From IMG/VR virus record IMGVR_UViG_3300047678_000815, positions 1-35,628 of that record: a DNA stretch of 35,628 nt; one strand, written 5' to 3'. Position numbers and translations under genes: made by a program. Source of the stretch: a virus. Below the pieces are notes generated by a model. It was not told the origin of the DNA, searched no databases, and saw only the letters and a program-made list of their open reading frames with translations. This document shows, piece by piece, positions 16,107 to 35,628 of the stretch. The first letter of the stretch is position 1, and each line of letters starts with the position of its first letter.

Positions 16107-18101
16107 GTGTCGCAACGTCAACGCCTCGAGGGAACGCTGCACCGCAGTCTGCCCGTCACCATTGCCATCCGCGCAGCGCAGGAGGGTGATGCCGATGATG
16201 GTCTGCTGCGCCTGACCATTTCCGCTTCCTCGGAACTGGCCGTCCTGCGCACTCCCTACTGGGAGGACCCCTGGCTGGAAACGCTCGGGCACGACGAAGG
16301 CGAAGTTGATCTCACTCGTTTCAGTGATGGTGCCACTGTGCTGGCGAATCACGATCGCTATACGGCAGTCGGCAACACGCCGCTGGCAGGCATTGGTGCC
16401 ATCGAGCGTGCCTGGCTGGAGGGCGGTCGCCTGAACACGGACATCGTGATCAGCCGCCGCGAAGGCCTTGCCGATCTGCGTCAGGACATTGCCGACAATC
16501 TCGTGCGTAACGTGTCCATCGGTTACGTCATCAACGAGCGCGTGCTCACGAAGACGGGCAAGGATGGCGCCCCCAACGAATACCGCATCACCAGCTGGAT
16601 GCCCTACGAACTTTCTCTGGTGGATATCCCGGCCGACGCCACTGTCGGTATCGGGCGATCCGCTGGCGATCAGAAATCCCCTGCCGCGACTTATCGCGTG
16701 CTGGGGTTGCCCGCCGAGGGCACCTCGACCCACGAAGGAGAACGCTCCATGTCTCAAGCCCCCGCCCCGGCGGCAATCCCTGCCGCCTCGGCAGCAGCTC
16801 CGGCTGCTGTCACCGAAACAACCCGTGCCCAGCCCGCTGCTGCGCCTGTCGCTGCCCCTGTGGCGCAGATTCGCGAAGCGGTGCGCGTAGCCGGCTTCGA
16901 CAACGAAGTCGCGCTCGACTACATCGAGCGCGCTCTGCCGCTGGAACAGGTTCGCGAAGATCTTTTCCGCAAACTTGCAGAAAAGGCCAACGCCGCCCCG
17001 CAGCGCTCCACGACAAGCGTGGTGATCGTGCAGGACGAAACCGTCACCCGCCGCGACTTCATGGCCGACGCGATCGCTCACCGCATGTCGCCCAGCACCC
17101 AGCTGACCGAAGGTGCCCGCCAGTTCCGCCACATGAGCTTGCTGCGCATGGCCGAGGAAACCCTGTCGCTGAGTGGTCTGCGCGTGCGTGGTCTTTCCAA
17201 TATGGAAATCGCCTCTCGTGCGCTGCACACCTCCAGCGATTTCCCGCTGATCCTGGCGGCTGTGGCCAACAAGCGTCTGCGTGCTGCCTATGAAGGCGCG
17301 CCGGTGACCTACGACCGCTGGGCTCGCCGCGCTCCGAATGCGCCGGACTTCAAGAACATCAACGTCATGCAGCTTGGTGCCGCTCCCGATCTGGAAGCTG
17401 TGGCCGAAGGTGGCGAGTTCAAGTACGGCACGCTCAAGGAAGACGGCGCCACCTACAAGGTCGCCGCTTACGGCAAGATCGTGGCCTTCACTCGCCAGTC
17501 CATCATCAATGATGACCTGCGTGCTTTCGATCGCGTGCTGGCTTCCTTCGGTGCTTCCTCGCGTCGTCTGGAAAATCGCCTCGTGTACAAGCAGCTCACC
17601 AGCAACCCCGTGATGGGCGATGGCGTTGCACTGTTCCACGCTGACCATGGCAACCTGGGCGGTGCCGCCGCTATTTCCGGCACCACGCTGGGTGAAGGCC
17701 GCGCCGCCGTGCGTAAGCAGAAGGGCCTGGCAGGCGAAGACCTGAACATCACGCCTTCCTTCTTGCTGCTGCCGACTGATCTCGAGCAGCTGGGCTACCA
17801 GTACACCTCGAGCCAGTACGTGCCGGCCAAGCCGGGCGACACGAACGAATTCCGCGCCGGTGGCCGCACCGCGCTGGAGCCGATCGTGGACCCGGTTCTG
17901 GATGCGACCTCCTCTTCGCAGTGGTACCTGGTGGGTGATAGCAGCTCCTGCGATACCGTCGAGTATTGCTGGCTGGACGGTGCCGAGGGCGTTTACCTCG
18001 AATCCGAGCCCGGCTTCGATATCGATGGCATCAAGCTGAAAGCCCGTCTCGACTTCGCTGCCAAGGTGGTTGACCACCGCGGCATGTATCGCCGCGGCTG
18101 A
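16107..18101 (+). CDS. prohead protease / major capsid protein fusion
   Basis: 664 residues from GTG 16107 (AAAGGAG upstream). Residues 1-185 form an HK97-type (U35/S78-like) prohead protease with H82 in NHDRY and the likely nucleophile S137 in NVSIGY, ending in the LVDIPADAT strand. Residues 190-330 are Ala/Pro-rich then helical, like a scaffold/delta domain. From about 335 to the end it reads as a major capsid protein (LEAVAEGGEFKYGTLKEDGATYKV, FTRQSIINDDL, ALFHADHGN). Such fusions are a known class. An in-frame ATG at 16749 (residue 215) has its own strong ribosome site, so the capsid part may also be made separately. A terminator follows at 18121. Confidence 0.9.
   Translation: MSQRQRLEGTLHRSLPVTIAIRAAQEGDADDGLLRLTISASSELAVLRTPYWEDPWLETLGHDEGEVDLTRFSDGATVLANHDRYTAVGNTPLAGIGAIERAWLEGGRLNTDIVISRREGLADLRQDIADNLVRNVSIGYVINERVLTKTGKDGAPNEYRITSWMPYELSLVDIPADATVGIGRSAGDQKSPAATYRVLGLPAEGTSTHEGERSMSQAPAPAAIPAASAAAPAAVTETTRAQPAAAPVAAPVAQIREAVRVAGFDNEVALDYIERALPLEQVREDLFRKLAEKANAAPQRSTTSVVIVQDETVTRRDFMADAIAHRMSPSTQLTEGARQFRHMSLLRMAEETLSLSGLRVRGLSNMEIASRALHTSSDFPLILAAVANKRLRAAYEGAPVTYDRWARRAPNAPDFKNINVMQLGAAPDLEAVAEGGEFKYGTLKEDGATYKVAAYGKIVAFTRQSIINDDLRAFDRVLASFGASSRRLENRLVYKQLTSNPVMGDGVALFHADHGNLGGAAAISGTTLGEGRAAVRKQKGLAGEDLNITPSFLLLPTDLEQLGYQYTSSQYVPAKPGDTNEFRAGGRTALEPIVDPVLDATSSSQWYLVGDSSSCDTVEYCWLDGAEGVYLESEPGFDIDGIKLKARLDFAAKVVDHRGMYRRG
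16735..16751 (+). promoter_or_regulatory. internal ribosome site and in-frame ATG in capsid fusion
   Basis: AAGGAG at 16735-16740 lies eight bases before ATG 16749, in frame with the fusion (codon 215). The block GGAGAAC...TGTC.CAA resembles the gene's own start (GGAGAACACC GTG TCGCAA), so both starts encode MSQ. This suggests a scaffold/capsid-only product of 450 residues, translated more strongly than the GTG-started fusion. Confidence 0.7.
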
Positions 18102-28937: not shown

Positions 28938-29515
28938 GTGCCGAGGCATATACACAGGCCCAGCATGCGCTGCTGCCTCCTGGTCTCTTTCAGGCGCTGG
29001 GTCCCAATTTCCTGAAGCTGCTGGATGTGCGCTCCGAAATGCTGGTGCGCGTGCATCTGCGTGGTGATGACCTTCTCCGTGAAATGGATCCGCGCAGCGC
29101 CTACGAGCTGCTGCCGGATTATGAGCGCGTTTTTGGATTGCCCGATCCCTGCGCGCCAGAGGCGCTATCTATTGCAGACCGCCGAGGGGCGGTCATTGCC
29201 AAGTACACCGACGCCGGCCTTCAAACGCCGGCGTTTTTCATTCAGCAGGCGGAAGCCATGGGCTACGCCGGCGCCGCGCTGGAAGAGTTCGAGCTGTGCA
29301 CCTGCGAGTCGGATTGCGAGGACACCCTCTACAGCCAGCCCTGGCTGCACACCTTCATGTTGCATCTGCCCGCTGATCCGCCAGCCCTTGGGGCTACCTG
29401 CGAGGGCAGCTGCGAAGACTTTCTCGGTGCACCACCGAACACGGTGATCGAGTGCCTTATCAACCGTCTCAAGCCGGAGCACACCACCGCGCTGTTCCAC
29501 TACATCGGAGTCTGA
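28928..29515 (+). CDS. Mu gp48-like baseplate/tail protein (DUF2313)
   Basis: 195 residues. SAEAYTQAQHALLPPGLFQALGPNFLKLLDVRSEMLVRVHLRGDDLLREMDPRSAYELLPDYERVFGLPD, then LSIADRRGAVIAKYTDAGLQTPAFFIQQAEAMGY match the DUF2313/Mu gp48 family (LLPPG...LL...DP..A.ELL.DWER..GLPD). Two Cys-rich clusters (CTCESDC and CEGSCEDF) in the C-terminal part may bind metal. Acts at the baseplate-fibre junction, following baseplate J as in Mu. Confidence 0.93.
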   Translation: MAVSAEAYTQAQHALLPPGLFQALGPNFLKLLDVRSEMLVRVHLRGDDLLREMDPRSAYELLPDYERVFGLPDPCAPEALSIADRRGAVIAKYTDAGLQTPAFFIQQAEAMGYAGAALEEFELCTCESDCEDTLYSQPWLHTFMLHLPADPPALGATCEGSCEDFLGAPPNTVIECLINRLKPEHTTALFHYIGV

Positions 29516-29516
29516 A

Positions 29517-30335
29517 ATGCGTCGTATCAATACCTCGACAAAAGCCACTGATCTGCACGGCCCGGGCAAGCATGGCTTCAAGGCCGGCAACAGCCTGACC
29601 GGCGAATTGCCCACACAGTTGAGTCCCGTTTATTGCGACGATGTGCAGGAAGAAATTGCCAATGCCATTGAAGGTGCTGGCATCACGCTCGGTGCAGACC
29701 AGAGCCAGCTGCTGGCAGCCATCATTGCGCTGGCTGATCAGCGCGCGGCGTTGCGCGCTTCTTTCACTGGTCAGCCTTCTTACTGCTTCGGATTAACAGC
29801 TCCGGCTGGTTGGGTGCGTCGTCATGGCGGCACGATCGGCAATGCTATATCGGGTGCAACAGAGCGAAATCACGCTGATACGGAAGCGCTTTTCACGCTC
29901 ATCTGGGAAGAAACAGATAACGCTGACTATCACATTCAGGACAGTGCTGGCACGCCGACCATACGCGGAGCAAATGCTGCAGCAGACTTTGCTGCCAATA
30001 AGCGCATGCCACTGCCTGATGATCGCGGCAGTGTTGATGTCGGCCTGAATGCCAGCGCTACGGGTAAAGACCCCAATCGTGTGCTTGGTAGTTATCAGGA
30101 AGATGCAATCCAGAACATTACCGGCACGGTTGGCGAGTGGCCCCAGTATTTCTCGGATAACCCGGCCGCCGCCGCTGGGCCTTTTTACTATGACGCAAAC
30201 GGTTCCGGCACGCCGCCCAATGTCGGTGGTAGCGCAGGGAAGGGCTATGTGAAATTTGATGCTTCTCGAACCGTGCGCACTTCCACTTTCACGCGCATGT
30301 CAAACCGTGCCTACACCGCAATCATGAAGCTCTAA
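29517..30335 (+). CDS. tail fibre protein with tail-collar domain
   Basis: 272 residues. The N-terminal part (MRRINTSTKATDLHGPGKHGFKAGNSLTGELPTQLSPVYCDDVQEEI) resembles the baseplate-binding start of short tail fibres, and ALRASFTGQPSYCF begins the collar region. The collar segment GWVRRHGGTIGNAISGATERNHADTEALFTLIWEE and MPLPDDRGSVDVGLNA carries the GGTIGN-x-x-SGATER-x-x-ADT pattern of tail-collar domains. The C-terminal part (GYVKFDASRTVRTS...NRAYTAIMKL) is beta-rich, likely a receptor-binding tip. No fibre assembly chaperone gene is recognisable downstream. Confidence 0.85.
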   Translation: MRRINTSTKATDLHGPGKHGFKAGNSLTGELPTQLSPVYCDDVQEEIANAIEGAGITLGADQSQLLAAIIALADQRAALRASFTGQPSYCFGLTAPAGWVRRHGGTIGNAISGATERNHADTEALFTLIWEETDNADYHIQDSAGTPTIRGANAAADFAANKRMPLPDDRGSVDVGLNASATGKDPNRVLGSYQEDAIQNITGTVGEWPQYFSDNPAAAAGPFYYDANGSGTPPNVGGSAGKGYVKFDASRTVRTSTFTRMSNRAYTAIMKL

Positions 30336-30343
30336 GGAGCGCC

Positions 30344-30484
30344 ATGTACATCTTCATCGGCTACGGCCCCTTGCCGCTCGATCGCGATCCGCCGGCGGGT
30401 GGCGACTGGCCGGAAAACACACTTTTTCTTGATGAACTTGGCGCGTTCGCTCTCGATGACGACGGCGTGCTTGTGCTGGAGTAA
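30344..30484 (+). CDS. 46-residue protein of unknown function
   Basis: 46 residues, MYIFIGYGPLPLDRDPPAGG, then DWPENTLFLDELGAFALDDDGVLVLE. Strong ribosome site TAAGGAG six bases before ATG 30344. It is acidic and beta-like (several hydrophobic strands), with no membrane segment. It lies eight bases after the fibre gene and three before the 627-residue repeat protein, whose ribosome site (GGAG) is within its last codons. No known family. It may be a small adaptor or chaperone for the cassette. Confidence 0.7.
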   Translation: MYIFIGYGPLPLDRDPPAGGDWPENTLFLDELGAFALDDDGVLVLE

Positions 30485-30487
30485 CAC

Positions 30488-32371
30488 ATGGCTGGCGAAC
30501 AAAAGTGGAAAAACCAAACGCCTGTTGAAAATCCTTCGCTGAGTGCTGAGGTGATAGTCAAAGTGGGCGAGGGTCAATTCGGCCGCACAACTGTCGGCGC
30601 GATTGCCGCGACGGCCGTGCGTGGTGGCCCTGCGCAGTTCGATGATTATTTCACTGACCGCCCTTACTTCGAGCGCGGTGGCGGTTACTACGACATCACG
30701 GCCGCCTATAGCCGAGAAGGTGGCCAGCGCGCTGTGAAGCAGGGCGACATGATTACCTGGTTGCCCAATCTGGCACCGGCCGCGCTCGGTGGCCCTGCCG
30801 CCCTCTATTCATTTGTGCCGGGTGGCAAGACACTGCCGCTCGAATTCCGCCGGGACGTTCGCTACACCAGCGATCCCGAGCAGCCGATGTCCTGTGAATA
30901 TCATCACGACATTCCGATGATGTTTCCGAGTGCGGCTTTTTTCGCGCAGCTCAGTGAGGCGGCGGCAGGTGGCGGTGATCCGTCCGGTGCCCTCATGGGC
31001 GCTTTGGCGGTGATGGCGGCGGATACCGGGCTCAATACAGTGGAGGCGAGTGGTCTGACTATCGCTCTGCTGTGCAGCACGGTGATGGCTCCGCTGATTG
31101 AGCTGGGCGCTGCGGATAGTGTTGGCGCAATCGCCGGGAGCCGCATGTCTGCCTATGGCCTCGTGCCGGGCGTCACGATTATTTCCATGGACTTCGAGTT
31201 GTTCGGTTCCGGGGACGCAAGCGGGATGCGCTTCTGGCGCGACGGCGAAATCGTTACTCCCACGGGCGGTATTACGCCAACGCCTGGTCAAACCGCCGAA
31301 GACATCCTTGCCCAGTTCCTGCTGCCCGACGGCAAGATCATGCTGGGCGGTGCGGGCACGCTTTGCGCCGCTGTGCAGAAAATCTTGCTGCTGACGCGCG
31401 CCGTTGACGAGGCCGAGGCGCTGGACATTACCGAGCGCTGGCAAGAAACGATGGCCATGCCCGACCCGGATTACGAGCCGACGGAGCTTGTCTGCACAAT
31501 TCAGGGGCCCCCGCCCATCCACCTTATTCGCGCGCGTATGGAGCATCCGCTCGGAGAAACGGTGTTCCAGTGGCCGCTCGGTTACGACATGCCGGCGTCG
31601 GTGGTTGCGGGCATGGAAGACGATCAGGAGATCGCGGCGGCAATATCCGCATGGATTTTGGCTGAGCACGACTTTGATCTTCAGGCAGCTTTTGAGGCGA
31701 AGTACGGTGAGCTGGAAATCGCGCCGCCTTGGGGGGCTTATATCGACGGCACGTATCAGGAAGAAGATCAGACGATCACGCTCTTTGAGGACACCAGCGA
31801 GCCGCAGATATACGCGCACAATATCCGCCTGATGAGTGACGACGGCAGCACGGAGTTGTCGCTGTGGGGTATCGGCTTCGAGTTGCCAGCGTCGGTCATG
31901 CTGGGGACGTCTGAAGATGTGCTCGCGGCAATGATGCCCTTCATTAACGTGAAGAACATGGTGGATGAGGCGCTCGTGGGCTGGGGCATCAATCACACCG
32001 CACTGGTCGAGCTGCTCTATACCGACGCCGATGGTGCCGAGCAGACGTTTGCACTCCTGACTGACTACACGAAACCGGCACCGCCGCTTTATGCGCAGCG
32101 CTACTACATGCTAAACGAGGCCGGTGATGGTGAGTTTACGTCATGGTCAATCGGCTACCCGATACCGGCTGAAACGGTTGCGGCGGGTGAGGTGGAAATC
32201 ATCAACTGGATTAACACTGTCTGGACTAACACCCCGATTCTGACTCAAGTGAGGGAAATGCTTTCGTACTATAGCCTCCCGAGTTCCGCCGGTGTTCGCT
32301 TCGTCTATCTCGATGCGGACAGCGTGTCGCAGGAAATTACGCTTTACGACACCATCTATCCCCTGGACTGA
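30488..32371 (+). CDS. large protein with three C-terminal repeats, unrecognised family
   Basis: 627 residues. The N-terminal ~115 residues are polar and beta-rich with GYYDITAAYSREGGQRAVKQGDMITWLPN. The middle (about 135-320) contains DPEQPMSCEYHHDIPMMFPS, a helical Ala-rich part, and DFELFGSGDASGMRFWRDGEI. The C-terminal half consists of three tandem repeats of about 90-95 residues (about 341-435, 438-527, 531-622). Each has an aromatic/Arg strand, then Wx-GYxxPASV-like, a helix, and a final strand ending in LFEDT/LLTDYT/LYDTI. No family is recognised. Place after the tail fibre and the repeat architecture suggest a structural or receptor-interacting virion protein, but membrane association or an effector role is not excluded. 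Confidence 0.85.
   Translation: MAGEQKWKNQTPVENPSLSAEVIVKVGEGQFGRTTVGAIAATAVRGGPAQFDDYFTDRPYFERGGGYYDITAAYSREGGQRAVKQGDMITWLPNLAPAALGGPAALYSFVPGGKTLPLEFRRDVRYTSDPEQPMSCEYHHDIPMMFPSAAFFAQLSEAAAGGGDPSGALMGALAVMAADTGLNTVEASGLTIALLCSTVMAPLIELGAADSVGAIAGSRMSAYGLVPGVTIISMDFELFGSGDASGMRFWRDGEIVTPTGGITPTPGQTAEDILAQFLLPDGKIMLGGAGTLCAAVQKILLLTRAVDEAEALDITERWQETMAMPDPDYEPTELVCTIQGPPPIHLIRARMEHPLGETVFQWPLGYDMPASVVAGMEDDQEIAAAISAWILAEHDFDLQAAFEAKYGELEIAPPWGAYIDGTYQEEDQTITLFEDTSEPQIYAHNIRLMSDDGSTELSLWGIGFELPASVMLGTSEDVLAAMMPFINVKNMVDEALVGWGINHTALVELLYTDADGAEQTFALLTDYTKPAPPLYAQRYYMLNEAGDGEFTSWSIGYPIPAETVAAGEVEIINWINTVWTNTPILTQVREMLSYYSLPSSAGVRFVYLDADSVSQEITLYDTIYPLD
31508..32353 (+). repeat. three diverged ~280-base coding repeats
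   Basis: Repeat units at 31508-31792, 31799-32068 and 32078-32353 within the 627-residue gene. Shared residues: HLIRARMEHPLGETVFQWP-LGYDMPASVVAG in the first, IYAHNIRLMSDDGSTELSLW-GIGFELPASVMLG in the second, and LYAQRYYMLNEAGDGEFTSW-SIGYPIPAETVAAG in the third. Repeats are recognisable in protein but diverged in DNA, so the duplication is old. Confidence 0.8.
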
Positions 32372-32373
32372 TC

Positions 32374-32811
32374 ATGAAACTTTCTATTCCGATGTCATTT
32401 GATCTTCCGATTCCTTTCGCGGAGCTGTTCGCCAACCCGTCGCGCATCGTGGAGTGTATGCCGCGCGTTGAGCGCATTGATCAGCTTCAGGAGGGGCGCG
32501 TCCGCATCACCATGCAGACGACCCAGTTCACGCCACTGGTGAAGTACCAGCCTGTCGGCATTGTTGATATTCGCCGTGAGGGTAACACCCTGCGCTGGGT
32601 GCCCTGCGAGTGCCCACAATCCAAGGGAACGCTGGAGGGCACGGCCACGGCTACAACTGACGGCGCCACTCACATCGAAGCAAAGATAAACATTGACGAT
32701 CCGGCTTTGCCACAGCTGTGGACGCCACTGCTCAATGTTTATTTGCAGCGTGTTGTCGACAAGCTGATCGCCGAATTCAAAGAGAAATGGGTCGCCGCTC
32801 ACCCGGCCTGA
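32374..32811 (+). CDS. SRPBCC/START-like fold protein
   Basis: 145 residues: FDLPIPFAELFANPSRIVECMPRVERIDQLQEGRVRITMQTTQFTPLVKYQPVGIVDIRREGNTLRWV, then GTLEGTATATTDGATHIEAKINIDDPALPQLWTPLLNVYLQRVVDKLIAEFKEKW. The order strand, FxNPSRIVECMPRV helix, then many strands, then a long C-terminal helix is the helix-grip pattern of SRPBCC (CoxG/polyketide cyclase) proteins, which bind lipids or other hydrophobic ligands. This is unusual next to a tail fibre. It is two bases after the repeat protein and ends before a terminator. Conserved only as a fold pattern here; ligand unknown. Confidence 0.65.
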   Translation: MKLSIPMSFDLPIPFAELFANPSRIVECMPRVERIDQLQEGRVRITMQTTQFTPLVKYQPVGIVDIRREGNTLRWVPCECPQSKGTLEGTATATTDGATHIEAKINIDDPALPQLWTPLLNVYLQRVVDKLIAEFKEKWVAAHPA

Positions 32812-32829
32812 TTTTCACCACGCACACAC

Positions 32830-32853
32830 AAGCCGCCTTCGGGCGGTTTTTTT
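32830..32853 (+). terminator. terminator before lysis genes
   Basis: CCGCC (32833-32837), TTCG tetraloop, GGCGG (32842-32846), extended by A-T pairs and followed by a T7 run. It lies between the SRPBCC-like gene and the endolysin, separating the cassette from the lysis genes. Confidence 0.8.
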
Positions 32854-32868
32854 ATTTCCGGAGAAATC

Positions 32869-33369
32869 ATGGCAGGAATCATAGAGCCGGCCTGGCTGAC
32901 AGAGGCCCGTCGTCAGATCGGCGTGGCTGAAATCAAGGGGCCGAAGCATAACGGCACCATTCTCGGCTGGCTGAAGGTGTTGGGGGCATGGTGGGCAGAT
33001 GACGAAACTGCATGGTGTGGCGTGTTCGTCGCCAATTGCATGCGCATTGCGCGCGTGCCTCTTCCAAAAACATGGATGCGGGCAAAGGAGTGGCTGACTT
33101 GGGGTGTGGCTGTTGCTGCTCCCTGCGTCGGCGCCGTGGTTGTTTTTTCTCGCGACGGTGGCGGTCATGTCGGCTTCGTTGTGGGTAAGGATGCCCGCGG
33201 CAATCTCATGGTGCTGGGTGGCAATCAGGGCGACATGGTGGGGATCAGCCCCTTTGCCATGTCGCGAGTCACCGGGTACCGCGTTCCCGCTGACTACAAG
33301 ATTCCGCCGGCGAATTTGCAGCTTCCCATCCTTGCCAGCGACGGCAAGCTCTCGGCAAACGAAGCCTGA
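32869..33369 (+). CDS. endolysin, TIGR02594-type cell wall hydrolase
   Basis: 166 residues. EPAWLTEARRQIGVAEIKGPKHNGTILGWL, DETAWCGVFVANCMRIARVPLP, GGGHVGFVVGKDARGNLMVLGGNQGD match the TIGR02594 NlpC/P60-like family: catalytic C50 in AWCG, H100 in GGGHVGF and the third residue N119 in LGGNQGD. It should cleave peptidoglycan cross-links. There is no signal peptide or membrane segment, so release relies on a holin. GGAG precedes ATG 32869. The lysis location after the tail genes is typical. Confidence 0.92.
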   Translation: MAGIIEPAWLTEARRQIGVAEIKGPKHNGTILGWLKVLGAWWADDETAWCGVFVANCMRIARVPLPKTWMRAKEWLTWGVAVAAPCVGAVVVFSRDGGGHVGFVVGKDARGNLMVLGGNQGDMVGISPFAMSRVTGYRVPADYKIPPANLQLPILASDGKLSANEA

Positions 33370-33371
33370 TC

Positions 33372-33740
33372 ATGGCGGCGCTTTCAAAAAAACTGCGCAG
33401 CGTCGGCGAGGGTGCTCTCGCATTTTACTGTCCTGGCTGTAAGCAAGTTCACCAGATCCAGTATGGCGCTGGTCCCGGTCCGCGGTGGACATGGGATGGT
33501 GATGTCGAGCGCCCTACCTTCACGCCCAGCGTGCTCGTGCGTGGCGTGCGTGAGGATATGACGGATGAAGAGTGGGCCGAATACGACGCGGAATATCGGC
33601 GTGTCGGCCGCGCTGTGCTGGAAGGAAAGTTCGGCACTACCTGTCACACCTACATCACCGCCGGCCGCATCCAGTTTTTGGGTGACTGCACGCATGCCCT
33701 CGCGGGCCAGACCGTCGATCTGCCTGATCTTGATCCCTGA
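33372..33740 (+). CDS. DUF6527 family protein, small zinc-binding
   Basis: 122 residues: ALAFYCPGCKQVHQIQ (C20xxC23), RWTWDGDVERPTFTPSVLV, then TTCHTYITAGRIQFLGDCTHALAGQTVDLPD. This Cys/His-rich protein with W-x-W-D-G-D-x-x-x-P-T-F-x-P-S and the DCTHALAGxTVxLPD ending matches phage DUF6527 proteins. Function is not established; metal binding is inferred from Cys/His positions. Two bases after the endolysin gene. Confidence 0.85.
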   Translation: MAALSKKLRSVGEGALAFYCPGCKQVHQIQYGAGPGPRWTWDGDVERPTFTPSVLVRGVREDMTDEEWAEYDAEYRRVGRAVLEGKFGTTCHTYITAGRIQFLGDCTHALAGQTVDLPDLDP

Positions 33741-33770
33741 TTTTTCCACTTCATTTTTCTGGAGGAAATG

Positions 33771-34679
33771 ATGCCACCCATCATTGTTGCTTTGTGGCCG
33801 CTGCTGCTGGTCTGCCTGCAATCGCTTGTGAGTTATCTGCTGGGCCAGCGCATCTTTGAGTCGCTGCTGCTGGTGGGTATTCGCCAGTTCTGCAAGCGCT
33901 GGCCGAATCCCGTGGTGATTGAGCTCGCCATTGCCTGGGCGGATGCCGTGGGCAAGCGGCAGCTGCTGGGCGATCTGAAAGTGCCCGAGCCCACCGCGAT
34001 CGATTTACCCGCCATCAGTGGCAAGCCGCCGTCGGGTGAGGCCGGCTTTGCGTGGCTGCCGGTGCTCCTGGGGCTGGCTCTGCTGGTCGCGGTGGGTGCC
34101 GCATGCTTTCGGGCTGGTATGCACTACAGCGAGCCCGTGCCTGTTGCTGCCACCTATGAGGCTGGCAAGGCATTGCCCGGTGGTGGCCTGCAGCTGGAGT
34201 CGCGACCCGATCCAAAAGCGGTGCCGGCGCAACCGGTGCCAGCGGGGGCGAAGGTACAACGCACCGGCCAGATCAAGGTCCGCCCCAAGGCGCCGGCGAA
34301 GCCTGCGCAGCTGGTGGGTGGTGCTGGGCAGCAAGGCGCTGCCTTGGCCAAGGACGGCGCCCCGGAAGGCCCTTCGATTGATTGCCCGGCGGTAACGCTG
34401 GACTACACGCTGCTCCGGCTTCCGGATGGCCAAGAACGCATGCTCACGAGCTCGCCCGATGGGACGGTGCTGGATGGCCATGATTCGCCCGTGGCAGCCG
34501 TCACGCTCGTGCCTGAGCGTAAGTGGGCGGCCGGCCTGAGTTACGGGCTAGGCGCGCGCTCCGGAGGCATTGGCGTGGCGCTTGAGCGTGAGCTGGCGCC
34601 TTTCGTAGTTGGTGCCGATGTCTTCTTGGTAGATGGCGAGCCCGGTGCCCGCCTCAAGGCGCTCTGGCGCCTGAAATAA
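33771..34679 (+). CDS. two-membrane-segment protein with beta-rich C-terminus, possible spanin/lysis protein
   Basis: 302 residues from ATG 33771 (GGAGG five bases upstream, so preferred to the ATG three bases earlier). Membrane segments at about 4-24 and 95-113, a Pro/Ala/Lys-rich linker (about 120-180), and a C-terminal domain ending PERKWAAGLSYGLGARSGGIGVALERELAPFVVGADVFLVDG, which reads as amphipathic beta strands. Many phages carry a protein with this type of C-terminus near lysis genes. Together the inner-membrane anchor, linker and terminal beta part would suit a protein spanning the periplasm, but no lipobox or coiled coil proves a spanin. The N-terminal segment could also make it holin-like. 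Confidence 0.6.
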   Translation: MPPIIVALWPLLLVCLQSLVSYLLGQRIFESLLLVGIRQFCKRWPNPVVIELAIAWADAVGKRQLLGDLKVPEPTAIDLPAISGKPPSGEAGFAWLPVLLGLALLVAVGAACFRAGMHYSEPVPVAATYEAGKALPGGGLQLESRPDPKAVPAQPVPAGAKVQRTGQIKVRPKAPAKPAQLVGGAGQQGAALAKDGAPEGPSIDCPAVTLDYTLLRLPDGQERMLTSSPDGTVLDGHDSPVAAVTLVPERKWAAGLSYGLGARSGGIGVALERELAPFVVGADVFLVDGEPGARLKALWRLK

Positions 34680-34827: not shown

Positions 34828-35628
34828 ATGAACGCAAAACCCATCATCCCCTGGATCGGCGGCAAGACCCGTCTGGCCGCCGATATCGTCCCCTTGTTCC
34901 CGCCTCATACCTGCTACGTGGAGCCCTTTGCGGGCGCTGCTGGCATCCTGTTTGCCAAAGAGCCATCGAAGTCGGAAGTGCTGAACGACGTCAACGGCGA
35001 GCTGGTCAATCTCTATCGCGTCCTGAAAAACCACCTCGAGGAATTCGTCCGCCACTTCAAGTGGGAGCTGACCAGCCGCCAGATTTTCGAGTGGCACAAA
35101 TGCACCCGGCCGGAGACGCTGACGGATATCCAGCGCGCAGCGCGGTTTTATTACCTGCAGCGCACCTGCTTCGGCGGTCGCGTGGTGGGCCAGACTTTCG
35201 GCACCGATCCGACAGCACCCGCCCGGCTCAATCTGCTGCGCATCGAGGAAGACCTGTCGGCGGCACACTTGCGCCTTTCCAGCGTGGTCATCGAGCACCT
35301 GGACTGGCACGACTGCGTCACCCGCTATGACCGGGAGAGCACGCTGTTTTTCTGCGATCCGCCTTACTGGGGCACCGAAGGCTATGGCGTGGATTTTCCG
35401 CTGGTGGAATATGAGCGCCTAGCAGAAGCCGCGCGCACCGTTGCCGGCAAGATGATCATTACGGTCAATGACCATCCGGAAATGCGCAGGGTGTTTGCTG
35501 GCTTTCCCATGGACGTGGTGGGCATCAAGTATTCGATCACCGCACCAGGTGCAGAGCGCAAGCAGACCGGCGAGCTCATCATCCGGAACCGCGCGGATGG
35601 ATTTAACGGACAAGTTGGTTTGCTATGA
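34828..35628 (+). CDS. D12-class DNA adenine-N6 methyltransferase
   Basis: 266 residues. PIIPWIGGKTRLAADIVPLFPPHTCYVEPFAGAAGILFAKEPSKSEVLNDVNGELVNLYRVLK has the SAM-binding motif I (VEPFAGAAG, 31-39) preceded by the PWIGGK motif of Dam-like D12 enzymes. FFCDPPYWG has the catalytic DPPY (177-180). The order FxGxG first, DPPY later, is the alpha class. It methylates adenine in DNA (GATC-like specificity is typical but not proven here). The gene ends at the last base of the window. Likely protects phage DNA from host restriction or acts in regulation; a moron gene is equally possible. Confidence 0.92.
   Translation: MNAKPIIPWIGGKTRLAADIVPLFPPHTCYVEPFAGAAGILFAKEPSKSEVLNDVNGELVNLYRVLKNHLEEFVRHFKWELTSRQIFEWHKCTRPETLTDIQRAARFYYLQRTCFGGRVVGQTFGTDPTAPARLNLLRIEEDLSAAHLRLSSVVIEHLDWHDCVTRYDRESTLFFCDPPYWGTEGYGVDFPLVEYERLAEAARTVAGKMIITVNDHPEMRRVFAGFPMDVVGIKYSITAPGAERKQTGELIIRNRADGFNGQVGLL

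Follow-up and report, generated by a model that had tools for sequence, protein, structure and literature searches.

A predicted START-like protein beside an orphan repeat protein behind the tail fiber of a temperate-type myovirus: a candidate accessory tail module

Behind the tail fiber gene of a myovirus, three closely spaced genes encode a small acidic protein (A46), a large orphan protein ending in three diverged tandem repeats (B627), and a third protein (C145) that very likely folds like members of the SRPBCC/START superfamily. In a phage tail region, the pairing of a predicted START-like protein with an orphan repeat protein appears unusual, and it is represented by one record among those searched. 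Phage tail-tip genes often decide which bacteria get infected, and some of their products need dedicated chaperones. We tentatively favor reading the cassette as a late-expressed accessory tail-tip module, in which B627 would be a second appendage and C145 its partner or assembly factor. A reading of the genes as cargo acting on the host comes a close second.

The window, that is, the whole stretch of DNA analyzed, is the complete virus record of 35,628 bases, which is possibly a fragment. Judged by gene content, the virus is a myovirus with temperate-type regulators: family searches identified genes for a repressor, a CII-like activator, a primase, and a helicase, for the terminase, the portal, and a head protein with protease, and for the sheath, tube, tape measure, hub, GpP-like, J, and gp48 proteins of the tail. 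A 664-residue protein (16107–18101) matches "major head and protease protein" from end to end (phrog_4523, 9.7e-196) and, by this match, is a fused head protein and protease; a 680-aa antisense ORF overlies its gene. In gene order, gp48 is followed by the fiber, A46, B627, C145, a terminator-like site, and a CHAP gene (Table 1). The fiber resembles phrog_1858 tail fiber at residues 1–86 (2.8e-21), phrog_8763 tail protein at residues 92–182 (5.5e-10), and phrog_523 tail collar fiber at residues 183–271 (4.3e-10), and the DNA of the fiber and gp48 genes had no match in phage records. The succession of gp47/J, gp48, and fiber is that of SfV-like and Mu-like myovirus tails, with 32–37% identity for gp48 among the matches listed. 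However, the window differs from these tails in having the A46-B627-C145 trio in place of Tfa.

The CHAP protein downstream is a probable endolysin by sequence, with "baseplate hub subunit and tail lysozyme" as its best PHROG (1.7e-38) and a weaker PHROG endolysin match (8.6e-6). Beyond it lie a DUF6527 family gene (33372–33740; Pfam 1.1e-12; phrog_3362, unknown function) and a gene for a 303-residue protein (33768–34679), possibly a lysis-associated membrane protein: its hydropathy peaks strongly at residue 96 (2.35), and no family matched it below E 0.3. A D12-class adenine methyltransferase gene (34828–35628) follows, and the record ends exactly with its stop codon.

Table 1. Positions in the window of the cassette genes, their internal features, and their boundaries
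Feature	Position	Strand	Basis or description
Tail fiber, 272 aa, upstream boundary	29517..30335	+	PHROG matches
A46	30344..30484	+	46-residue acidic protein, no known relative
B627	30488..32371	+	627-residue acidic orphan protein
Most hydrophobic 19-residue stretch of B627, residues 190–208	31055..31111	+	Kyte-Doolittle mean 1.81
B627 repeat 1, residues 328–439	31469..31804	+	self-comparison
B627 repeat 2, residues 434–530	31787..32077	+	self-comparison
B627 repeat 3, residues 525–627	32060..32368	+	self-comparison
C145	32374..32811	+	SRPBCC/START-like protein, 145 residues, predicted model
Terminator-like hairpin and T-run closing the cassette	32830..32853	+	8-pair stem, 4-base loop
CHAP-domain protein, probable endolysin, downstream boundary	32869..33369	+	Pfam CHAP 4.8e-8

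All genes of the cassette lie on one strand with the fiber gene, which is separated from A46 by 8 bases; the gaps from A46 to B627 and from B627 to C145 are 3 and 2 bases. The original prediction, made from the sequence alone, had the coordinates, lengths, and both short spacings right, and it correctly placed the cassette between the fiber gene and a terminator. The latter is a hairpin at 32830–32849, followed by TTTTATTT, before the CHAP gene. Terminator-like sites of any quality numbered eight between 29400 and 33000, against 3.0 in shuffles, and the site at 32830 has the longest stem. The ribosome sites had been called good throughout, which is true of A46 (AGGAG, four bases before the ATG) and B627 (GGAG) but not of C145, whose site is weak, with a GGA core only. 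Since this weak site is combined with a start two bases past the B627 stop, translational coupling of C145 to B627 is likely. A search of 29400–33000 confined to sigma-70-type promoter-like sites found one on the minus strand, where 1.1 were expected, and none on the plus strand. Slot, strand, and tight spacing favor late expression with the tail.

All three are real genes with phage-like codon usage. A codon model was trained on ten other genes of the phage, with the fiber, CHAP, and methyltransferase genes left out. The in-frame scores per codon of A46, B627, and C145 were 0.55, 0.33, and 0.34 (z of 4.7, 14.2, and 7.1 against shuffled sequence), similar to the held-out fiber (0.29), CHAP (0.28), and methyltransferase (0.34). 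Antisense ORFs over B627 and C145 scored −0.02 and 0.05, below the sense frame and above their own shuffles (z of 5.5 and 3.9), as is expected opposite a real gene.

The fold of C145 was predicted with AlphaFold2 from the single sequence (pLDDT 65.7, pTM 0.58; pLDDT of the five models 50.0–65.7). The model consists of a strand at residues 2–11, helices at 15–20 and 23–27, eight more strands, and a helix at 117–142, and it contains the helix-grip order of a strand, two short helices, an antiparallel sheet, and a long C-terminal helix. Foldseek matched it to 199 solved structures at E <= 0.001, with 3p9v (Maqu_3174, Marinobacter) as the best (1.9e-8, TM 0.67–0.70) and the CoxG-like 2ns9 and 8uds also among the matches. 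Within the best 50 of these 199, 35 bear names that we take to denote the SRPBCC/START superfamily (START, CoxG, PR-10 and Bet v 1-like, PYL, and aromatase/cyclase), 14 are uncharacterized proteins, and one is a designed cage. VIA-align superposed the model on 3p9v_B with a Z of 14.3 and an rmsd of 3.1 Å over 140 of 145 residues; its further rows, at Z 11.9 and below, are lipid-transfer and CoxG-like proteins. That a model made without an alignment falls so clearly within a single superfamily supports the fold well, and the earlier guess that C145 is SRPBCC-like is borne out by the prediction. C145 differs from the superfamily in being encoded in a phage tail region and is 18–20% identical to 3p9v. 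The predicted fold match gives no indication of ligand or role.

By sequence, the Pfam family nearest to C145 is DUF1997 (PF09366), at 14 bits and E 0.055 (12.5 bits in a second search), below the curated cut-off of 27 bits. The DUF2505 profile (PF10698; curated cut-off 26.9 bits), which gave matches in 3 of 14 control genomes, did not match C145 at E <= 10. Sequence relatives of C145 were absent from phages, viral contigs, and plasmids, and the only PDB sequence matches had E values of 1 and 1.5. Four viral models matched C145 at E <= 0.001, one unnamed and three from giant viruses, and none of the four is named as a phage protein. A phage-encoded SRPBCC protein was not found in a limited open-access literature collection, a result that applies to those sources and is not a claim of absence from print.

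B627 (67.6 kDa) has a pI of 4.15, and its residues 328–627 form three diverged tandem copies of about 100 residues each. Their pairwise scores of 63, 61, and 87 exceed the shuffle maxima of 45, 43, and 54 (means about 26; 300 shuffles each); identity to copy 2 is 27% for copy 1 and 28% for copy 3, and W-x-x-G and PA are kept in all three. The three repeats of the original prediction are therefore present, but the copies span 97–112 residues with small overlaps, rather than about 90, and the first 327 residues lie outside them. A model of copy 2 from the three-sequence alignment (pLDDT 60.8, pTM 0.45) suggests the order strand-strand-helices-strand-strand. This low-confidence model gave no clear match to solved structures (Foldseek best E 0.38, VIA-align best Z 4.7); we regard the fold as unmatched at low confidence and do not claim that it is novel.

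Profile searches of PHROGs, Pfam, NCBIfam, and PADLOC gave no match for A46 or B627, in agreement with the statement that neither belongs to a known virion or lysis family; C145 likewise had no match in PADLOC, a defense library. No relative of B627 appeared in 50,697 phage records (tblastn), in 72,556 plasmids, or in the viral and genome contigs (exact-peptide scans, close relatives only), and PDB sequences gave chance-level rows only (best E 0.34). Across the PHROG, Pfam, NCBIfam, phage, contig, and PDB-sequence searches, B627 had no fiber, spike, or baseplate sequence match. Searches with its repeat profile came up empty in viral contigs, in PDB sequences, and among fetched ORFs, and each copy was without a Pfam match. 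A46 was compared with eight small ORFs that follow gp48 in six of its relatives; none stood out, as 54–294 of 300 shuffles reached each score.

These negatives differ in weight. The contig scans looked for exact matches to six short peptides, an approach that detects only close relatives; for gp48, the genome-contig scan yielded 76 stretches and no confirmed relative. It thus missed gp48 relatives, and its empty answers weigh little. The tblastn search in phages is a better negative, because the same search recovered gp48 relatives in 52 records. Against 195 fetched loci (2.4 Mb), the best matches of A46, B627, and C145 were at chance level (lowest E 0.21). The whole records behind 51 loci gave no C145 match and those behind 38 loci no repeat-profile match; both searches lacked a positive control, so their emptiness proves nothing. 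No second genome with the trio was found among the phages, viral contigs, plasmids, and fetched loci.

The slot itself was compared across loci sharing the fiber. The fiber middle region (about residues 92–178) is common to 18 viral contigs (L009–L026) at 44–64% identity, some of them short fragments or near-duplicates (L016/L017, L019/L020), and only in L010 and L013 does the similarity continue as far as the C-terminus; four further contigs among 22 with fiber relatives share the N-terminus only and were left out. In four of the 18 (L013, L015, L021, and L023), the gene 8–12 bases after the fiber encodes a plus-strand protein of 520–757 residues with partial-length matches to PHROG tail, tail fiber, or tail spike families, followed in L021 by a phage lysozyme. 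The earlier view that receptor-binding and fiber-assembly genes normally sit in this position is supported in part, by these four loci. An ORF behind the fiber of L025 has an L013-type N-terminus (8.1e-24). A 120–124 residue protein precedes a large protein in L010 (weak tail fiber match) and L018 (family of unknown function), a 589-residue protein occupies the slot in L014, L016, and L017, and the slot holds something else or nothing clear in L009, L011, L012, L019, L022, L024, and L026; this tally covers all of the 18 except L020. This comparison favors a second appendage for B627, which, like these proteins, lies close behind the fiber on the plus strand and is of similar size. However, the second proteins of L013, L015, L021, and L023 have PHROG tail matches and a common N-terminus, and B627 has no PHROG match and apparently not that N-terminus; one of the three scanned with Pfam (L013) exceeded the Beta_helix cut-off, whereas B627 has no Pfam match. 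An apparent resemblance of B627 residues 14–45 to the N-terminal motif of the L013-type proteins was dropped after a profile of the four appendage N-termini, in a one-sequence search without a shuffle control, missed B627 at E 100.

The lack of a standard fiber chaperone had been presented as a peculiarity of the window. A profile of 35 Tfa-like proteins did not match the fiber, A46, B627, or C145, and a Tfa remnant in the slot was rejected on this ground; searches of PHROGs gave no Tfa match for the three cassette proteins. Tfa is missing as stated, but its absence is not odd, since none of the 18 fiber-sharing loci gave a Tfa match. Among 90 loci with a gp48 relative, 55 have 2.5 kb or more behind gp48; a Tfa-like gene, sought on the same strand in the first five ORFs of a crude longest-ORF gene call, was present in 35 of the 55 and absent from 20. 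In these 35 loci, the first ORF of at least 100 aa after Tfa has the opposite orientation in 28 and the same orientation in 4, and no such ORF was seen in 3. Right behind the fiber or Tfa, on the opposite strand, Pantoea phage AH07 (L005) has an annotated acyltransferase, and L028 and L029 have membrane-protein-like ORFs (331 and 354 aa), possibly acyltransferase-like. In L163, gp48-like and fiber-like ORFs recur adjacently, with two fiber starts of the same N-terminus flanking the second gp48-like ORF, an arrangement that resembles a duplicated or invertible fiber region.

The accessory tail module is, in our judgment, possible rather than probable. It would have the N-terminal half of B627 attach the protein to the tail or baseplate, with the C-terminal string of three diverged domains facing outside. 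C145, made straight after B627, would most likely bind and shield it as a dedicated assembly partner or bind a hydrophobic ligand, and A46 would be a small accessory protein. In this reading, late expression, a virion location, a B627-C145 partnership, and possibly receptor binding are inferred; receptor binding or membrane action by the cassette would be a plausible candidate role. The shared strand, the 8-, 3-, and 2-base gaps, the lack of a plus-strand sigma-70-type site, and the terminator-like site after C145 argue for this module, as do the apparent fiber-appendage-lysis order common to L021 and the window, the putative tandem C-terminal domains of B627, and, by analogy, the place of C145 directly behind B627, where dedicated chaperones are encoded. 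Against it stand the absence of any fiber, spike, or baseplate match for B627, the unmatched repeat model, the N-terminus profile that missed B627, a hydrophobic maximum above those of the six second-slot proteins measured (1.81 against at most 1.60), and the frequent cargo site in gp48 relatives.

We know of no SRPBCC fiber chaperone. We consider unlikely a new kind of tail-appendage system in which an orphan receptor-binding protein with repeats has an SRPBCC/START-fold protein as its own partner, serving as a chaperone or in host-lipid delivery or sensing at the tail tip. In size, C145 falls within the 81–243 residues of the Tfa-like proteins in the compared loci, and like Tfa and gp27 of phage V22, it is encoded directly downstream of a large protein. 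Chaperones that serve one receptor-binding protein and are encoded right behind it are established, gp26/gp27 of V22 being an example (PMC7289586), and gp27 was shown experimentally to be a new chaperone type (PMC7289586; PMC10579305). The body of V22-type chaperones is helical and bears a hairpin (PMC10579305), whereas C145 is predicted to have an SRPBCC fold.

A lysogenic-conversion or host-modifying cassette is the close rival to the tail module, although we hold it somewhat doubtful. B627 and C145 would then act outside the virion, inside the infected or lysogenic cell, on envelope lipid, a small molecule, or superinfection. The other-strand ORFs after Tfa in 28 of 35 gp48 loci, exemplified by the acyltransferase of Pantoea phage AH07, mark this position as often a cargo site and speak for such a role, and orphan status fits cargo as well. 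Lipids and small molecules are frequent ligands of SRPBCC proteins. In Corynebacterium, mycolic acid synthesis requires a DUF2505 SRPBCC protein, which was a phage-resistance hit (PMC9671496). However, the cassette genes follow the tail genes on one strand with almost no gaps, no plus-strand sigma-70-type site precedes them, their N-termini have no hydrophobic stretch of signal-peptide strength (by hydropathy only), and the defense library gave no match.

It is least likely that B627 is membrane-active and linked to lysis or DNA entry, with C145 shielding its hydrophobic segments until use. Residues 284–302 (Kyte-Doolittle mean 1.72) add a second stretch to that at 190–208 (1.81), and the next gene encodes the CHAP protein. 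Yet a terminator-like site parts the cassette from that gene. Within this phage, moreover, similar values are reached by the CHAP protein (1.93) and the hub (1.71), neither annotated as a membrane protein, and the tape measure is more hydrophobic still (2.48), which makes the stretches weak evidence. Chance adjacency of three unrelated passengers is only slightly less improbable: in its favor, no second genome among those searched has the trio as a sign of conserved linkage, but the 3- and 2-base spacing and the weak C145 ribosome site suggest coupled translation.

What the cassette would mean depends on the reading. If the tail module holds, a START-like fold at a tail tip would be a new class of partner; if the genes are cargo, they would point to a phage acting on host lipids or small molecules. 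B627 and its repeats, if solved, may define a new domain family.
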